The translations under genes were made by a program, and so were the position numbers. This document shows, in pieces, positions 26,335 to 35,909 of a stretch of 64,000 bases of DNA. Source of the DNA: Deltaproteobacteria bacterium (GTDB taxonomy: Bacteria; Desulfobacterota; Syntrophia; Syntrophales; Smithellaceae). Location: contig JAAYDW010000057.1 in the NCBI GenBank assembly GCA_012729055.1, positions 62,001 through 126,000 of the forward strand. The letters are read 5' to 3'. The notes beneath the pieces were generated by a model. The model was not told the origin of the DNA, searched no databases, and worked only from the letters and a program-made list of their open reading frames with translations. Numbering within the stretch: the stretch's first letter is position 1; each line of letters starts with the position of its first letter.

Positions 26335-27942
26335 ATGAAGGTTTTTCGCTTGAGCGGCCTGCCTCTGGCCCTGGAAGAAACCGAAGATCGTCTTTCCGGC
26401 AAAGCGGCTGCCGCTTTGGGGCTGGCCGAAAACGACATCGTTTCTCTCACCATTCTGAGAAAAGCCCTCGATGCCCGGCGCAACAGACAGCCGTATTTTG
26501 TGTATGCCGTCAAAATCGTTTTGTCCGATTCCGCCTCTGTAACCGAACCACTTCCCGACGGTATGCAGCTCGGGGCTTTGCAGGAGGAGCCGGAAATAGG
26601 ATTTTTCCCGCCGGTTGTGCGGGGCGGCTGTCCTGTTGTGGTCATCGGCGCAGGGCCGGCCGGCCTTTTTGCGGCCTATACCCTGTCTGTGCAGGGCCTG
26701 CCGGTGGTCCTGCTGGAGAGGGGGAGTCCGGTTGAAAAACGGATCGGCGATGTCGAGACGTTTTGGCGCAGCGGACGCCTTAATCCGGAAAGCAATGTTT
26801 TTTTCGGCGAGGGAGGGGCGGGAACCTTTTCCGACGGAAAACTGACCAGCCGGACAAAAAATCCCTCCGCCGGCTGGGTCAAGAGAATCCTGGCGGATCT
26901 GGGCGCGCCCGTTTCCATTCTGACAGATGCCAAACCGCATATCGGAACGGACCGGCTCCGCCGGGTTTTGATCAATATGAGGCGCAAGCTTGCCGATCTG
27001 GGATGCGCCGTGCGATTTCACGCCCGGATGACGGACGTGATCATTTCCCGCAGCGCCGTTGCCGCCGTCGTCGTCAACGGCGAAGAGGAAATCAGAGCCG
27101 ACGAAGTCATCCTGGCGATCGGCCAGGGCGCGGACGATACTTACCGTCATCTGAACGCCAGAGGCGTTCAGATGACGCCCAAACCCTTTGCCATGGGGGT
27201 GCGCCTGGAGCATCCGCAGTCTCTGATCAACCGCATCCAGTACGGCCGCTGGGCGGAGGATCCACGCCTGCCGCCGGCGGAGTATTTTGTCACCGCCGCG
27301 GCCGGCGATCGGGGCCGTTCCGTTTACAGCTTCTGCATGTGTCCGGGAGGGCAGGTGATCGGCTGCAGCGCCGTTTCACAAACCGTCATCACCAACGGCA
27401 TGAGCGACACCAGACGCAGCGGAGCATTGGCCAACAGCGCCATCGTGGTGAATGTGCGGGCGGAAGATTTCGCCGTTCCGGGCGATCCGCTCGGGGGGCT
27501 CGCCTTCCGTCGGATCTGGGAGCAAAAAGCATTTGAGACCGGAGGGGGAGATTACCGGGCGCCCGCGCAACGGCTGACCGACTTTATCGCAGACCGAATG
27601 TCGGAAACCCTCGGGTGGACCAGTTTTTTGCCCGGCGTCCGGGCCGCGCGTCTCGACGACGTATTGCCGCCGTTTGTCGGCGGGGCCCTGCGGGCCGGAA
27701 TCCGGATGTTTGACAAAAAAATGCCCGGATTCGTGACAGAAGAGGCTTCTTTGATCGGTGTGGAGACGCGCACGTCGTCGCCCGTACGCATCGTCCGGCG
27801 CGACGACGGTCAGAGCGAAAACGTGCAGGGCCTCTATCCCTGCGGAGAAGGAGCGGGCTACGCCGGAGGCATCATCAGTTCGGCGCTCGACGGCATCAGG
27901 GCCGCACGGCAGGTCCTGGCCGCGCGGGGCGGGCGTCCATAA
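26335..27942 (+). CDS. FAD-dependent oxidoreductase (COG2509-type)
   Basis: 535-residue cytosolic flavoprotein. About 95 N-terminal residues form a small domain, then the Rossmann fingerprint VVVIGAGPAGLFAAYTLS (about residues 100-117) with the acidic end VVLLERG. FGEGGAGTFSDGKLTSRTK is a signature of this uncharacterised family, and PCGEGAGYAGGI is the second FAD contact near the C terminus. The reaction is unknown. A perfect 15-bp inverted repeat lies inside the gene (27145-27177). Its 3' end overlaps ribD on the other strand by 47 bp. It is divergent from the NusG-like gene. Confidence 0.85.
   Translation: MKVFRLSGLPLALEETEDRLSGKAAAALGLAENDIVSLTILRKALDARRNRQPYFVYAVKIVLSDSASVTEPLPDGMQLGALQEEPEIGFFPPVVRGGCPVVVIGAGPAGLFAAYTLSVQGLPVVLLERGSPVEKRIGDVETFWRSGRLNPESNVFFGEGGAGTFSDGKLTSRTKNPSAGWVKRILADLGAPVSILTDAKPHIGTDRLRRVLINMRRKLADLGCAVRFHARMTDVIISRSAVAAVVVNGEEEIRADEVILAIGQGADDTYRHLNARGVQMTPKPFAMGVRLEHPQSLINRIQYGRWAEDPRLPPAEYFVTAAAGDRGRSVYSFCMCPGGQVIGCSAVSQTVITNGMSDTRRSGALANSAIVVNVRAEDFAVPGDPLGGLAFRRIWEQKAFETGGGDYRAPAQRLTDFIADRMSETLGWTSFLPGVRAARLDDVLPPFVGGALRAGIRMFDKKMPGFVTEEASLIGVETRTSSPVRIVRRDDGQSENVQGLYPCGEGAGYAGGIISSALDGIRAARQVLAARGGRP
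27145..27177. repeat. Perfect 15-bp inverted repeat within a coding sequence
   Basis: CGTCATCTGAACGCC (27145-27159), a 3-nt loop AGA, and its exact reverse complement (27163-27177). In RNA it would form a very stable hairpin in the middle of the FAD oxidoreductase message; it encodes RHLNARGVQMT. It lacks a following U tract. Confidence 0.9.
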
Positions 27943-29005
27943 TGACATCCGGCCCCTTTTTCAAAATTTTGCGGATTGAAAATATCCTGGCCTGCGCGAG
28001 GTCGCGGATACCCAGATCGCCGACGGCTTCAATGCCCCGGCCGATGATCTTGGGCGCCGTGACCACGACCAGGCGATCGACCAGACCGTTTTGGAAAGCG
28101 GATGTGATGACTTGCGCGCCGCCTTCGATCAGGACCGAGGAAATCTTGCGCTGGGCCAGAAGCGGTAAAAGGCTCGTCAGATTGACGTGGCCGTGCCCGT
28201 CGGCAGCGACGGTTATCATGGTTGCCCCGGCCGAAGACAGAGCCTGAAACCGAGGATCGGCGGAATCTTTCGTCGTGATGATCAGTGTCGGCGCCTCGGA
28301 GAGGTTTTGCATGACGTTGGCATCCGTCGGCGTAATCAGTCCGGAATCCAGAATAATTCTCACAGGGTTTCTGCCCCGCACGTGCCGGACGGTGAGTGTC
28401 GGATTGTCCGCAAGCACGGTGTTGCTTCCGACCAGAATCGCATCATGTTCGGCCCGCAGACGATGAGCGAATTTCAGGGAGGCCGGAGAACTGATCCATT
28501 GCGACCGGCCGGTCGATGTGGCGATCCGGCCATCCAGGGTTTGCGCGTACTTCACCGTGACAAAGGGCCGTCCCTTTTCCATGAAATGAAAGAAGACCTC
28601 ATTGAGGTCGCGGCTTTCTTTTTCAAGAACGCCGGTGGCGACAGCAATGCCCGCTTCCTGCAGGCAGGAAATGCCCCGGCAGGAAACCAGGGGATTGGAA
28701 TCGGTGGCGCCGATAACGACCCGGGCGATTTTATGCGCAATGATTTTATCCGTGCAAGGCGGCGTTTTCCCGTGATGACAGCAAGGTTCCAGCGTTACGT
28801 AAAGGGTCGATCCTGCGACATTTTCCGTTGCATTTTCTATCGCGTTGACTTCCGCGTGGTTTTCGCCACAACAGGTATGATACCCTTCGCCGATAATGCG
28901 GTTGTTCTTCACAATTACTGCGCCGACCATCGGATTGGGGCTCGCGTATCCCCGTCCTCTGGCGGCGAGTTTCAGGGCCAGCTTCATGTAATCGTCGTCC
29001 ATCAT
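27896..29005 (-). CDS. ribD: Riboflavin biosynthesis deaminase/reductase
   Basis: Bifunctional enzyme of flavin synthesis, 369 residues. The N-terminal zinc deaminase holds SPNPMVGAVIVKNNRI, the zinc His and catalytic Glu in NHAEVNAI (near residue 50), and the cysteine pair in PCCHHGKTPPC. The reductase domain begins at FVTVKYAQTLDGRIA (about residue 146), and the usual SSVLIEGGAQV motif is present. Other rib genes are absent from the window. Two consecutive ATGs start it; the first is used. The end overlaps the convergent FAD oxidoreductase by 47 bp, so its last 15 or so residues are constrained by both genes. Confidence 0.93.
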   Translation of the reverse strand: MMDDDYMKLALKLAARGRGYASPNPMVGAVIVKNNRIIGEGYHTCCGENHAEVNAIENATENVAGSTLYVTLEPCCHHGKTPPCTDKIIAHKIARVVIGATDSNPLVSCRGISCLQEAGIAVATGVLEKESRDLNEVFFHFMEKGRPFVTVKYAQTLDGRIATSTGRSQWISSPASLKFAHRLRAEHDAILVGSNTVLADNPTLTVRHVRGRNPVRIILDSGLITPTDANVMQNLSEAPTLIITTKDSADPRFQALSSAGATMITVAADGHGHVNLTSLLPLLAQRKISSVLIEGGAQVITSAFQNGLVDRLVVVTAPKIIGRGIEAVGDLGIRDLAQARIFSIRKILKKGPDVIMDARPARPGPAVRP

Positions 29006-29137: not shown

Positions 29138-29165
29138 TTGACTTCTGTTAAAAAACGTGTACGAT
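29138..29165 (+). promoter_or_regulatory. Promoter of the riboswitch-pilD transcript
   Basis: TTGACT (29138-29143), 16 bp, TACGAT (29160-29165). The predicted start near 29172 coincides with the beginning of the GEMM aptamer. The ATTTATTGAC and TACGAT elements are shared with the pilin operon promoter at 30156. Confidence 0.6.
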
Positions 29166-29169
29166 CCAT

Positions 29170-29268
29170 TGCGAAGCTTGAGAAGGGCAAACCTCCTGAA
29201 AGGGCGGGACGCAAAGTTACTGGCCTAAGTCCTTGGGATGGGATAGGGTCGCAGGGCTGCCGAGCGGT
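29170..29268 (+). ncRNA. Cyclic di-GMP-I riboswitch (GEMM-I motif)
   Basis: The run contains the conserved GEMM-I elements in order: AAGGGCAAACC, a GAAA tetraloop closing a helix, GGGACGCAAAG (with the A that stacks between the ligand bases), GGCCTAAG, and the 3' block AGGGTCGCAGGGCTGCCG, all matching the Vibrio Vc2 class. The base equivalent to Vc2 G20 is G, which favours c-di-GMP over 3',3'-cGAMP; GEMM-Ib cGAMP sensors of Geobacter carry A here. It lies about 60 nt before the pilD start. One U-C mismatch is seen in the first helix. The switching mode is not clear: no terminator with a U tract follows, so control of translation is more likely. Confidence 0.88.
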
Positions 29269-29328
29269 TCACATGTCCCGCGTTCCGGAATATCCCGTAA
29301 AAGAGAAAATCAACGAAAGAGATTGCTC

Positions 29329-30090
29329 ATGATCTTCAGTGTGTTTGCCTTTATTTTCGGCGCTGCCATCGGAAGTTTTCTCAATGTCTGCATTTTCCGG
29401 ATTCCGGCGGGCCAGTCCATCGTCAAGCCTCTTTCTCGGTGTCCCTCCTGCGAGCATCCCATCCGTTTTTACGATAATATTCCGATCATCAGCTTTATTC
29501 TGCTGCGGGGCAGATGCCGGGACTGCGGAGCAAAAATATCCTGGCGCTACCCGTTGGTCGAGCTGATCAGCGGCTTGCTGGCGCTCGCGCTTTTTCTGAA
29601 ATTCGGCCCGACGCTCAACTTTCTGGTATTCTTTATTTTTACAGCCGTATTGATCGTCATTGCATTCATTGACATCGATCATCAAATCATTCCGGATATC
29701 TTATCGCTGCCCGGCATTCCGGTTTTTTTTCTGGCGGCCGTCTTTATCGTGAAAGTTCCCTGGCATGAAGCCCTGATCGGTCTTGTGGTGGGAGGCGGAA
29801 TTCTTCTCGCCATCGCTTTGTTTTACGAGTTTATCGCCAAGCGCGAGGGGATGGGGGGCGGCGACATCAAGCTCCTGGCGATGATCGGCGGATTTTTCGG
29901 ATGGAAGGCTTTGATCTTTGTTCTGCTGTTCAGTTCTCTGGCCGGGGCGGTGGTGGGGATTGCGGCCATGATTATCAAGAAAAAGGATATGAAATACGCC
30001 GTGCCTTTCGGACCGTTCCTTTCGGCGGCGGCGGTGGCTTACATTTTCTGGGGCGATATTTTCATGCGTTTTCTGGTGTTGGGGTATTGA
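29329..30090 (+). CDS. pilD: Prepilin leader peptidase/N-methyltransferase
   Basis: Inner-membrane aspartyl protease that cuts and methylates type IV prepilins. ATG 29329 is used (253 residues); upstream frame overlaps the riboswitch. GSFLNVCIFRIP (residues 15-26) is the conserved methylase-region start, and the zinc-like tetrad CPSC and CRDC (about residues 40-72) follows. The two catalytic aspartates are in IDIDHQIIPD and GGGDIKLL. About seven membrane segments. Its leader carries a c-di-GMP riboswitch, and the pilin genes it serves start about 220 bp downstream. Confidence 0.95.
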   Translation: MIFSVFAFIFGAAIGSFLNVCIFRIPAGQSIVKPLSRCPSCEHPIRFYDNIPIISFILLRGRCRDCGAKISWRYPLVELISGLLALALFLKFGPTLNFLVFFIFTAVLIVIAFIDIDHQIIPDILSLPGIPVFFLAAVFIVKVPWHEALIGLVVGGGILLAIALFYEFIAKREGMGGGDIKLLAMIGGFFGWKALIFVLLFSSLAGAVVGIAAMIIKKKDMKYAVPFGPFLSAAAVAYIFWGDIFMRFLVLGY

Positions 30091-30155: not shown

Positions 30156-30184
30156 TTGACACTCAACAGCAACTCGGTTACGAT
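30156..30184 (+). promoter_or_regulatory. Promoter of the minor-pilin operon
   Basis: TTGACA (30156-30161), 17 bp, TACGAT (30179-30184). The start near 30191 leaves a leader of about 120 nt before fimT/gspH. That leader contains a stem ACCGAAC / GTTCGGT (30256-30262 with 30269-30275) but no recognised riboswitch. Confidence 0.65.
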
Positions 30185-32490: not shown

Positions 32491-34377
32491 ATGTTTACCA
32501 GAAAGAGCTTGAGCGCCTGGGCAAATATTCTTCTGCTCGTTTTGTTTCTGTGCCTGCCGCTATGTGCTTTGGCGCAGACGGAAGATGAAATACCTCCGGC
32601 CAACGACGAGCAGGATACCTTCGGCGGTGCGGCACCGGATGCCTTGATTCTGCTGGACTTGTCCGGGTCCATGGACTGGAATCCGGCCGGCGATGACACT
32701 TTCGTATACGGATCTTCCACCGCCTGCACGGCGGATACGACAAATTGTGCCGATCACAGTTATTACGGCGATACGAAATGCGCGGGCGGTTTTTGTAAGT
32801 CCAACTTCATTCATCCCACCTGCAAAGTCGATTGCCGGCGTGTGGCGATTGCCAAGCGGGCGCTTTTCAACGTCATGGATTTCAACAACGACGGCATAAT
32901 AGATAAAAACGACGCGTCCGGTTTGAATGTGCGCATCGGTTACATGCGATTCAAGGGCGGCAATGATACAGGCGGCGATCCCGCCACAGGGAAAAACAAA
33001 CTGGTTACTTATATCAGCGATTACGGTAAACTCACAGGTACGTCCTATCAGCTTACCTATTGCGGCAAAACAGGCGAAAATTCCAGTTGTCTCATAACGG
33101 ATACCTGTGCAACAGGCGAATGTATTGCGAAAGCCAGCGCGGACGGAGGAACGCCGCTTTCCGCCGCCTTGAAGGAAGCGAAAAAATATCTGGACCTGCA
33201 TAAAAACGGAACTCCGCCGAACTATACCAACGCCGATCCCGGCAAAGCCTGCCGGCAAAAGTTCGTCATCCTGGTTTCGGACGGAGCGGATACGTATGCC
33301 TGCGATGGCGACGGTTCCGAATGCCAGGCGCATATGTACGAGCGTCGCCGCGAAGTGGTGGCGGCGGCCAAAGCTTTGAACGATCACGGTTATAAACTGT
33401 TCGTAGTCGGCTTTGGTTCGGTGATGCCGTCCTACCTGAAAAATACGCTCAATTGGATGGCCTATTACGGCGGCACGGACAATCCCGATACAGATGCAGA
33501 GAATACCGGAAATCCGGCTGATTACGGTATTCCCAAAGGAACCAACTGCGGGACGGCGAGCGCGGCCAACTGCTGCACCTTCAGCACTTCCGCGGGAACT
33601 TGTCCTTTTCCCGCCGCGACGGCGGCGGCCTGTTTCCCGTCGGGCGTCACCGCCAGTTGTATGGAGCAGAGCAGCGATCTCGCGGCGGCGGATTGTCAGG
33701 GATCCTCGACCGCCAATTTCAAGTCAACGATCAACGATCCCGGTTATCTGGATCTTTCGGGCTACGCATTCATTGCGGAGGACGGAGATAAACTGACCAA
33801 GTCGCTGAAGGTTGCCATGAATGCCATCAGCGGCGCCAGTTATTCCTTTACCACAGCGTCCATTCAGGCAATTCGAACGGCCGATGAAAATTTTATCTAT
33901 GAAGCCTCTTTTGAAACGTCCGATTGCCCATTGTGGCGAGGACATTTGAAAAGGTACAATATCAATGCTACAACGGGCGCCATTATCACGCCCTCGACAT
34001 GGGATGCGGCATGGGATGCGGCCAGCGTTTTAAACAGTCAAAGTGAGACGGGCAGAGTCATAAAAACGCTTATTGGAAATGTTCTGGTTGATTTCAAGGC
34101 CACGACGTCGGACTTGACGGCCGCAAAGCTGAATGCCGCTGACGCCACCGAAAGATCCAATATCATCGGCTTTTTCAGGCAAGGCGATCAGATTGCCGCC
34201 AGCCCCCCGCCTACTGGCGTTTGGGAGATATTTTCCATTCCTCGCCCATGTCCATCGGTACGCCGAACGCCTTGTTTTACGATCAGTGGGATAACGCGTC
34301 GCCGAAGGCCTTTGACACGTTTCGCTCGAATCATATCCGGACATCCGCCAACGACGCTTACCACAACCGTTTCATGA
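32491..34377 (+). CDS. pilY1: PilY1, N-terminal part (frameshifted)
   Basis: Start of a type IV pilus tip adhesin. A signal peptide ends near ALAQ (residue 29). A von Willebrand A-like domain carries the MIDAS residues DLSGS at 56-60, and an EF-hand or dockerin-like loop DFNNDGIIDKND lies at about 130-141. Many cysteines suggest disulfides. The frame is good to about residue 571, where a C6 tract (34203-34208) lacks one base; the remaining 57 residues to the stop at 34377 are an out-of-frame tail. A strong AGGAG precedes the ATG. Adding one C would join it to the downstream frame and give a protein of about 1140 residues, normal for PilY1. Confidence 0.9.
   Translation: MFTRKSLSAWANILLLVLFLCLPLCALAQTEDEIPPANDEQDTFGGAAPDALILLDLSGSMDWNPAGDDTFVYGSSTACTADTTNCADHSYYGDTKCAGGFCKSNFIHPTCKVDCRRVAIAKRALFNVMDFNNDGIIDKNDASGLNVRIGYMRFKGGNDTGGDPATGKNKLVTYISDYGKLTGTSYQLTYCGKTGENSSCLITDTCATGECIAKASADGGTPLSAALKEAKKYLDLHKNGTPPNYTNADPGKACRQKFVILVSDGADTYACDGDGSECQAHMYERRREVVAAAKALNDHGYKLFVVGFGSVMPSYLKNTLNWMAYYGGTDNPDTDAENTGNPADYGIPKGTNCGTASAANCCTFSTSAGTCPFPAATAAACFPSGVTASCMEQSSDLAAADCQGSSTANFKSTINDPGYLDLSGYAFIAEDGDKLTKSLKVAMNAISGASYSFTTASIQAIRTADENFIYEASFETSDCPLWRGHLKRYNINATTGAIITPSTWDAAWDAASVLNSQSETGRVIKTLIGNVLVDFKATTSDLTAAKLNAADATERSNIIGFFRQGDQIAASPPPTGVWEIFSIPRPCPSVRRTPCFTISGITRRRRPLTRFARIISGHPPTTLTTTVS
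34203..34208 (+). other. C6 tract at the pilY1 frameshift
   Basis: Six consecutive C bases sit exactly where the pilY1 frame changes. With seven Cs the text reads ASPPAYWRLGDIFHSSP, matching the conserved PilY1 block. It may be a sequencing or assembly slip, a phase-variable switch or a true mutation. Confidence 0.8.
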
Positions 34378-35909
34378 TTGTGGGCGCCAATGACGGCCAG
34401 TTGCATGCTTTTAAAACAGGAGAACTGGGAGCGGACGGAGGCGGCAAGGAGCTGTGGAGCTTTATTCCGCCCAACCAGTTAAGACGTCTGAAGCTGATTT
34501 ATCATACCTACGGCCAGCATCCGCTCGATAAATCGCGTCAATACTACGTCGACGGACCGACCAGCGCGGCGGAAATATGGGTGCAGGATGGCAGCGCCAC
34601 GGATATTTCCAACACAACGAAAACGGAGAGCGAGTGGAAAACCCTGCTGGTGACGGCGCTGGGCCGGGGCGGAACCAGCACGCTTTGGAGTTCATCGGTA
34701 TCGTGCGACGCGGACAGTTCGGCCGGTTTCAGTCCCTACTGGACAGCAACACATCCCAACTATTGCGGGTATTACGCTTTTGACGCTTCCGATACGGCGG
34801 ATGATACCGTCAACTGGCCGTTTTTATGGCGTATCGGCGCCAATACCGGCTTGCCGGAGGACGAAGGGAAGTATCTCGGGCAAGCCTGGAGCAAAATGTT
34901 TATCGGACGAGTTCGGATTAATAATATTGAGCGATGGATTGGACTTATCGGCGGCGGCTATTCCGGGTGCGGTCTGGCCAAAGGCCGCACCTGTGCGCTG
35001 GATGGAGGAAACGACACCCGCGGCAAAGGATTTTACGTGATTGACCTCTCCAACGGCGATATCCTCTGGAAATACACGTACGCAACGAGTTCGGGGGCGC
35101 TTAAAGGAGACGTTCCGGCCGGGCCTTCGGCCGTGGATTCCGACAACGACGGCTTTATCGATAGAGCCTATGTTGGTGATTTGGCAGGCAATATCTGGAG
35201 GTTTCAATTCTGCCGCAAATCGGATCAGTCAACCTGCACCGAATCCAACTGGAGCGGCGGAATGATGTTCAATAATAATGACAATGCGGGAAACCGGCCC
35301 ATCTACACATCGGCGGCCGTCAGCATGGATCCGTCTTATAACCTGTGGGTGTACGTCGGAACGGGCGACAAAACCCAGCCTACCGCGCCCAATGCCCAGG
35401 AAAGGTTTTATGCAATCAAGGACAGAAGAAATAACGGTGATTCGGCGTACACTGTTTCGGATTTGGATTCAATCACGCCTTCACAGGCAGCTGATGTTTA
35501 TGAAGACGGAAACATTTCTTCAAAAAACGGGTGGTGGATTCAGTTTCCCAAAAGCGAGAAAGTTCTGGCCGAGCCGACCATTTATCAGGGAAGACTGTAT
35601 TTTACGACCTACGTTCCGGACACGGGGGGAGAAAACAGCGATCCGTGCAATGCGCCGGGAAGTTCCAGAATATACAACATGAACTATATCACCGCGAAAG
35701 GGTATTGGGGAAGTGATGCCAAGTATATAACGGAGGAAGGAAGCGGCGTCATGTCTGCCGTCGTTGTTTCCGTGGGGCCGGACGGTTCGGCAAATCTTTA
35801 TTATTCGCAGAGCGTCGGCGATCATGTCCAGCAGCTGCAGGATCCCAATCTTTCCAACGATCCGCGGGGCAGTTTGATTTACTGGCAGGACCGGCGCATC
35901 AGGCCTTAG
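34209..35909 (+). CDS. pilY1: PilY1, C-terminal beta-propeller part (frameshifted)
   Basis: Second part of pilY1, in another frame, opening with AYWRLGDIFHSSP (34209 on); the only internal start in that frame nearby is a TTG at 34221 without a ribosome site, so it is unlikely to be made alone. It is the PilC/PilY1 C-terminal domain: VGANDGQLHAFKTGELG, several propeller blades, and a calcium loop DSDNDGFID (35136-35162) followed by RAYVGDLAGNIWRF, matching the calcium site that controls pilus retraction in Pseudomonas PilY1. A terminator follows at 36016. Confidence 0.9.
   Translation, partial: AYWRLGDIFHSSPMSIGTPNALFYDQWDNASPKAFDTFRSNHIRTSANDAYHNRFMIVGANDGQLHAFKTGELGADGGGKELWSFIPPNQLRRLKLIYHTYGQHPLDKSRQYYVDGPTSAAEIWVQDGSATDISNTTKTESEWKTLLVTALGRGGTSTLWSSSVSCDADSSAGFSPYWTATHPNYCGYYAFDASDTADDTVNWPFLWRIGANTGLPEDEGKYLGQAWSKMFIGRVRINNIERWIGLIGGGYSGCGLAKGRTCALDGGNDTRGKGFYVIDLSNGDILWKYTYATSSGALKGDVPAGPSAVDSDNDGFIDRAYVGDLAGNIWRFQFCRKSDQSTCTESNWSGGMMFNNNDNAGNRPIYTSAAVSMDPSYNLWVYVGTGDKTQPTAPNAQERFYAIKDRRNNGDSAYTVSDLDSITPSQAADVYEDGNISSKNGWWIQFPKSEKVLAEPTIYQGRLYFTTYVPDTGGENSDPCNAPGSSRIYNMNYITAKGYWGSDAKYITEEGSGVMSAVVVSVGPDGSANLYYSQSVGDHVQQLQDPNLSNDPRGSLIYWQDRRIRP

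Follow-up and report, generated by a model that had tools for sequence, protein, structure and literature searches.

The actions for which c-di-GMP is best known are those on pilus motors and pilin transcription. The type example of the class I family RF01051 is Vc2/Vc1 of Vibrio cholerae, for which the residues that contact c-di-GMP are G20, A47 and C92; in Vc1 neither a terminator nor an anti-SD is apparent (PMC4744006). In Geobacter, cGAMP riboswitches precede pilus assembly genes (PMC6456294). One of these, the pilM riboswitch of Geobacter metallireducens (GEMM-Ib), is an ON-switch: a downstream strand captures the 3′ strand of the aptamer, including the C that pairs with the ligand, and ligand turns expression on; the base at the G/A site biases ligand selectivity without being a hard filter (PMC9262584). 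In Clostridioides difficile, a class II c-di-GMP riboswitch acts on a pilus cluster that includes the prepilin peptidase gene CD3504, which rises with c-di-GMP (PMC8428550).

The window analysed here is a stretch of 64,000 nucleotides from a genome whose lineage reads as Smithellaceae/Syntrophales-like (a 3.36-Mb draft in 113 contigs, rated 100% complete). An earlier note, made from the letters alone, had proposed that the leader of pilD in this window holds all the conserved blocks of a GEMM-I aptamer, and had named a covariance search as the check. That search (cmscan against Rfam) gives a match to RF01051 (c-di-GMP-I) of 71.0 bits (E 6.2e-12; gathering score 35) over the full length of the model, positions 1–87 of 87, and every block is in place: GGGCAAACC, the GAAA tetraloop, GGACGCAAAG, CCUAAG/GAUAGG and GCUGCC. 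The equivalents of the conserved A (A47) and C (C92) are both present, beside a G at the position of Vc2 G20. The family model R1 scores the same aptamer at 90.4 bits. It is the single GEMM-I in the whole genome, and one tRNA is the only other Rfam match in the window. The aptamer has a promoter-like TTGACT/TACGAT pair on its upstream side, with ribD (27896–29005, minus strand) lying before that pair, and pilD on its downstream side; after pilD follow fimT/GspH and then pilV-, pilW-, pilX- and pilY1-like genes (Table 1). The interval proposed at the outset, 29138–29330, was right: it begins at the −35 box and reaches the start codon.

Table 1. Features of the pilD leader and its surroundings, in window positions.
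Feature	Position	Strand	Evidence
pilD promoter: −35 TTGACT, 16-nt spacer, −10 TACGAT	29138..29165	+	position and TTGAC[TA] kept in nearly all of 32 leaders
c-di-GMP-I (GEMM-I) aptamer	29176..29264	+	RF01051 71.0 bits; R1 90.4 bits; compensatory changes
P1 5′ strand GCUUG, partner CGAGC at 29261–29265	29176..29180	+	sequence: G-C, C-G, U-A, U-G, G-C
Ligand-selectivity base, G (Vc2 G20 position)	29186	+	RF01051 model position 11
P2 stem-loop, GAAA tetraloop	29192..29208	+	cmscan alignment; helix 2 paired in 96.7% of cells
P3 stem-loop with tetraloop receptor CCUAAG ... GAUAGG	29216..29258	+	cmscan alignment; helices 3 and 4
Linker strand complementary to aptamer 3′ half (29231–29258); candidate expression platform	29274..29306	+	duplex −25.7 kcal/mol; family z −5.6
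Shine-Dalgarno-like GAAAGAG of pilD	29315..29321	+	sequence
pilD, prepilin peptidase/methylase, 253 aa	29329..30090	+	A24_N_bact and Peptidase_A24 domains; sole A24 peptidase of the genome
Second promoter-like pair, TTGACA-17-TACGAT, ahead of fimT-pilV-pilW-pilX-pilY1	30156..30184	+	position kept in many relatives

In sequence, in P2/P3 architecture with its tetraloop and receptor, in the G at position 20 with the A47 and C92 equivalents, and in its placement in a 5′ leader, the window aptamer is the same as Vc2/Vc1. It differs from them in its target, pilD, in its Syntrophales lineage, and in a platform whose linker is complementary to the aptamer 3′ half. With the pilM riboswitch it shares a pilus gene as target and a downstream strand that pairs with the aptamer 3′ half, excluding the bound fold (PMC9262584); whereas the pilM riboswitch has cGAMP as its ligand and an intrinsic terminator, the window switch has a G at the selectivity position, no T-run, and a peptidase gene in place of pilM. 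Cdi-2-4, in the type IV pilus cluster of C. difficile, is likewise a c-di-GMP riboswitch on pilus genes, but it belongs to an unrelated aptamer class (II), lies before pilA1 and acts on the cluster, whereas the window element is of class I and stands before a lone pilD. The literature search returned no class I riboswitch linked to pilD and no case in Syntrophus or in this lineage, for which the earlier note knew of no studied case either, although a similar gene association may already have been listed. The molecule appears to be an ordinary, good c-di-GMP-I riboswitch, and it is the link to pilD and the lineage that are without known precedent in the literature found.

The nearest relatives of the window's PilD come from Smithella/Syntrophaceae metagenome bins. 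Among 80 pilD loci fetched from species genomes, 15 carry the aptamer upstream of pilD, at 73–101 bits with model R1, and the next-best matches of this model across the 80 loci are noise, at 15 bits. The PilD proteins of these 15 loci are about 72–82% identical to that of the window, and the aptamer lies within 100 nt of pilD in all of them except L033; no aptamer was found in fetched pilD loci at 69% PilD identity or less, including those of Syntrophus, the Desulfobacterales and Geobacter sp. OR-1. With the sets of loci combined, the aptamer precedes pilD in about 32 of 51 family-level genomes, the window's counted, and the order promoter-aptamer-pilD is common to about 31 further genomes of the family. 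An exception outside the family is L018, with an aptamer 146 nt upstream of pilD. At least one GEMM-I is present in 61 of 99 relatives.

Compensation was assessed on the first 31 aptamers, aligned over 22 base pairs, with 500 shuffles and with slid controls. Across this alignment 97.9% of helix cells are paired (34–48% in the slid controls), and two-sided changes are seen in 12 of the 22 pairs; none of the 500 shuffles is as high. The earlier observation is confirmed: the covariance match, the synteny with pilD throughout the family and the compensated pairs support a real riboswitch, a well-made example of the known class I c-di-GMP type.

A transcription start had also been predicted at the 5′ edge of the aptamer. 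The pair TTGACT-N16-TACGAT matches the consensus at 9 of 12 positions, which in the window alone is no better than chance, and a promoter scan of the 64-kb window by itself gave a count of sites at chance level. The promoter was therefore judged by comparison across orthologous leaders. In almost all of 32 such leaders, TTGAC[TA] and a TATAAT-like box 16–18 nt downstream of it occupy a near-identical place, the pair ending about 6–16 nt upstream of the aptamer; the best promoter-like pair averages 10.0/12 over the 32 leaders versus 7.9/12 in shuffled upstream DNA. Since the promoter is conserved just upstream of the aptamer, transcription of pilD probably starts a few nucleotides before it.

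The linker that follows the aptamer measures about 60–100 nt in nearly all leaders. Between the end of the window aptamer (29264) and pilD (29329) there is no stem followed by a T-run, that is, no intrinsic terminator. In a set of 20 representative leaders, complementarity of the linker to the aptamer is strong over the last 36 nt of the latter (z −5.6; 0 of 300 dinucleotide shuffles) and lacking over its first 50 nt (z −0.5). Most leaders place this pairing alike, between about positions 62–90 of the aptamer and about 15–38 of the linker, and in L046 and L039 a divergent aptamer 3′ end, GGGGUUGCCGG, is matched by a divergent linker, CCGGUAUUCCC. A comparison of own with swapped linkers against the aptamer 3′ half agrees with this but is no more than suggestive (p 0.04–0.08), since there is little variation on the aptamer side. 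Such specific complementarity implies an alternative fold, mutually exclusive with the one that would bind ligand. The MFE of the leader as a single strand is not below that of shuffles (z −0.49), which argues neither way. Two other pairings were considered and dropped: that of the P1 3′ strand with the region before the ATG (GAGCGGUU/GAUUGCUC) has z −2.1 in the window but a mean z of −0.5 in relatives, and that of aptamer GGCAAAC with the pilD codons GUGUUUGCC, although strong in the window (z −3.1), has a mean z of −0.7 in relatives.

Compared with a platform of the pilM terminator type, the window has the anti-aptamer strand and lacks the U-tract. Because no U-tract follows this strand, intrinsic termination is less likely than control at translation or some more indirect effect on the transcript. 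The aptamer, the promoter, the gene, the single copy and the alternative pairing are well supported by sequence and comparison. What the RNA senses, that it regulates pilD, that it does so at translation and not by intrinsic termination, and in which direction, are inferences, which lead to the following scheme. The pilD mRNA would start a few nucleotides upstream of the GEMM-I aptamer, and c-di-GMP bound at the P1/P2/P3 junction would stabilise the aptamer. Without ligand, the linker strand would pair with the aptamer 3′ half, excluding the bound fold and forming a long hairpin about 9 nt upstream of the Shine-Dalgarno sequence. The amount of PilD would then be set by the choice between the ligand-bound and the linker-paired folds. 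That a c-di-GMP riboswitch controls pilD, whatever the sign, we regard as very probable from the sequence evidence.

With regard to the sign, the analogy to the pilM platform of Geobacter inclines us, with some caution, to the proposal that c-di-GMP turns pilD on. The opposite sign is quite conceivable, if not what we expect: bound c-di-GMP would free the linker to pair with the SD region, and without ligand the aptamer would hold the linker and pilD would be translated. The complementarity between the aptamer 3′ half and the linker agrees with this arrangement too, and in several relatives (e.g., L045, L113 and L012) the same segment of the linker, UCCAG, is complementary to an SD of sequence CUGGA. 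Over the set of 20 leaders, however, pairing between linker and SD is weak and not significant (z −1.3; swap test p 0.58), and in the window itself it is weak as well (−4.9 kcal/mol, z +1.2). The energy needed to open the SD region, with the aptamer forced or free, has no consistent sign among 31 leaders.

How far would a switch before pilD reach? The genome has exactly one Peptidase_A24 gene, pilD, together with 12 N_methyl prepilins at the search threshold and seven ATPases of the GspE/PilB/PilT type above the cut-off. This gene content fits the earlier suggestion that control of pilD would gate the processing of all prepilins at one step: with PilD as the sole prepilin peptidase, the switch could scale how much of each type IV pilin and each pseudopilin is processed. 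If PilD is limiting, a change in its amount could affect all prepilins and the GspE/PilB/PilT-type systems, and pilus formation and secretion might then be throttled at the processing step. PilD may, on the other hand, be in excess in the cell, and pili might then not be limited by how much of it is made.

It is tempting to extend the switch to the whole cluster, with pilD-fimT-pilV-pilW-pilX-pilY1 governed as one operon. The genes all lie on the same strand, and in other genera (L115, L129, L131, L134, L136, L144 and L024) a GEMM-I stands directly before fimT-pilV-pilW, in place of the pilD site or besides it. The 217-nt gap between pilD and fimT, however, holds a promoter-like pair of its own (10/12), whose position is kept in many relatives, and we consider the single operon rather unlikely. 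Since fimT and the genes after it have this conserved pair, pilD is probably the main target of the riboswitch. The gap is short in L015 and L016. In Rfam, even at permissive E-values, the region between pilD and fimT holds no second structured RNA. The occurrence of GEMM-I before fimT-pilV-pilW in other genera indicates that pilus biogenesis has come under c-di-GMP control repeatedly within the order.

The ligand-selective base had been read as G, the c-di-GMP type. The window aptamer indeed has G, and not the A of GEMM-Ib (cGAMP) riboswitches, at model position 11 of RF01051, which we take to be Vc2 G20 (mapped via the Rfam alignment). A Ser in place of the canonical Asp marks the Hypr GGDEF enzymes, which make cGAMP. 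Of 14 GGDEF matches in the window's genome, 12 have a readable motif; all of these are GG[DE]EF with the canonical Asp, none has the Hypr Ser, and a scan of the genome for the exact motif was also empty. The same motif scan found two Ser-type GGDEF domains in Geobacter sp. OR-1, the positive control. The G at the selectivity position and the c-di-GMP type of all 12 readable GGDEF domains point to c-di-GMP as the likely ligand. Genes preceded by GEMM-I in relatives, assigned by eye from motifs, include a PAS-GGDEF gene (L146), a GAF protein that is maybe an HD-GYP phosphodiesterase (L114, 372–459), a CheW-like gene (L017) and secreted repeat-rich proteins, a typical c-di-GMP regulon; the GGDEF, GAF and CheW-like genes, as identified by eye, suggest possible feedback on c-di-GMP itself.

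It is very unlikely that the window aptamer senses cGAMP, or both dinucleotides, instead. Orthologous pilD leaders of one sister genus, L122 (= L048; G021, 500–591) and L126 (= L037; G033, 425–518), do have A at the selectivity base, as do only a few other loci, and the G/A base is a selectivity factor without being absolute (PMC9262584). Against this, the window base is G, and a Hypr-type GGDEF was found neither in the window's genome nor in the genomes of L122 and L126, where all 18 full-length GGDEF domains read are of the Asp type. These two A-type leaders either still sense c-di-GMP, or have a source of cGAMP that is absent from the assemblies or from current knowledge. Leaders that are orthologous and carry G or A at this base are material for the study of shifts in riboswitch specificity. 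A bolder proposal, which we think improbable, is that in these syntrophic bacteria the switch serves as a single master valve, governing every type IV filament and type II secretion where present, and that the orthologous switch of the sister genus, in going from G to A, has changed its ligand preference although no cGAMP synthase is known there; if true, one locus would offer a natural series of changes in ligand specificity.

The interpretation of the earlier note, a c-di-GMP riboswitch controlling pilD, is thus supported by the RF01051 match, the pilD synteny, the compensation, the G base and the canonical GGDEF domains. That the aptamer is a functionless remnant, a conserved sequence uncoupled from pilD, is scarcely credible: the window aptamer has one mismatch in P2 (U-C) and the linker hairpin of relatives is altered in the window, but the aptamer scores 71 bits with every ligand-contact position kept, promoter and spacing are retained, the linker remains complementary to the aptamer (−25.7 kcal/mol), and within the family the aptamer evolves by compensation. 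The same messenger that acts on motors and pilin transcription appears, in this syntrophic family, to act via RNA on the one enzyme that all prepilins pass, and a surface-attachment signal would probably set the amount of the pilus-processing enzyme.

Several other features of these loci deserve mention. The pilY1 gene of the window is split into two overlapping frames, 32491–34377 and 34221–35909, near 34200–34225 at a C6 run, and its parts are in one frame in all relatives where both were found; the split reflects a frameshift lesion, or else a mistake in the assembly. A sigma-54-type promoter signature, TGGCAY-N5-TTGC, is not found in the window's own pilD-fimT intergenic region and is conserved in those of L032, L034, L033, L117, L051, L048, L005, L010, L011, L035 and L113, and a motif, GTGAAAATMACMGG, is conserved upstream of fimT in many of these loci.

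Among the aptamers, the L033 record (JAKLFM010000099.1) is titled Bacteroidetes, yet it carries the family's GEMM-pilD locus and is probably mis-binned; an insertion brings its linker to 378 nt. The pilD-linked aptamers of L118 (= L046) and L127 (= L039) have a shortened P3 arm without the usual receptor sequence, and a linker altered to match. L114 (G014:C38), L112 (G043:C44), L141 (G037:C84) and L008 carry two to four GEMM-I aptamers in tandem, and several such arrays precede secreted repeat-rich proteins. In the trio of L114, the selectivity base is A in the first aptamer and G in the next two.
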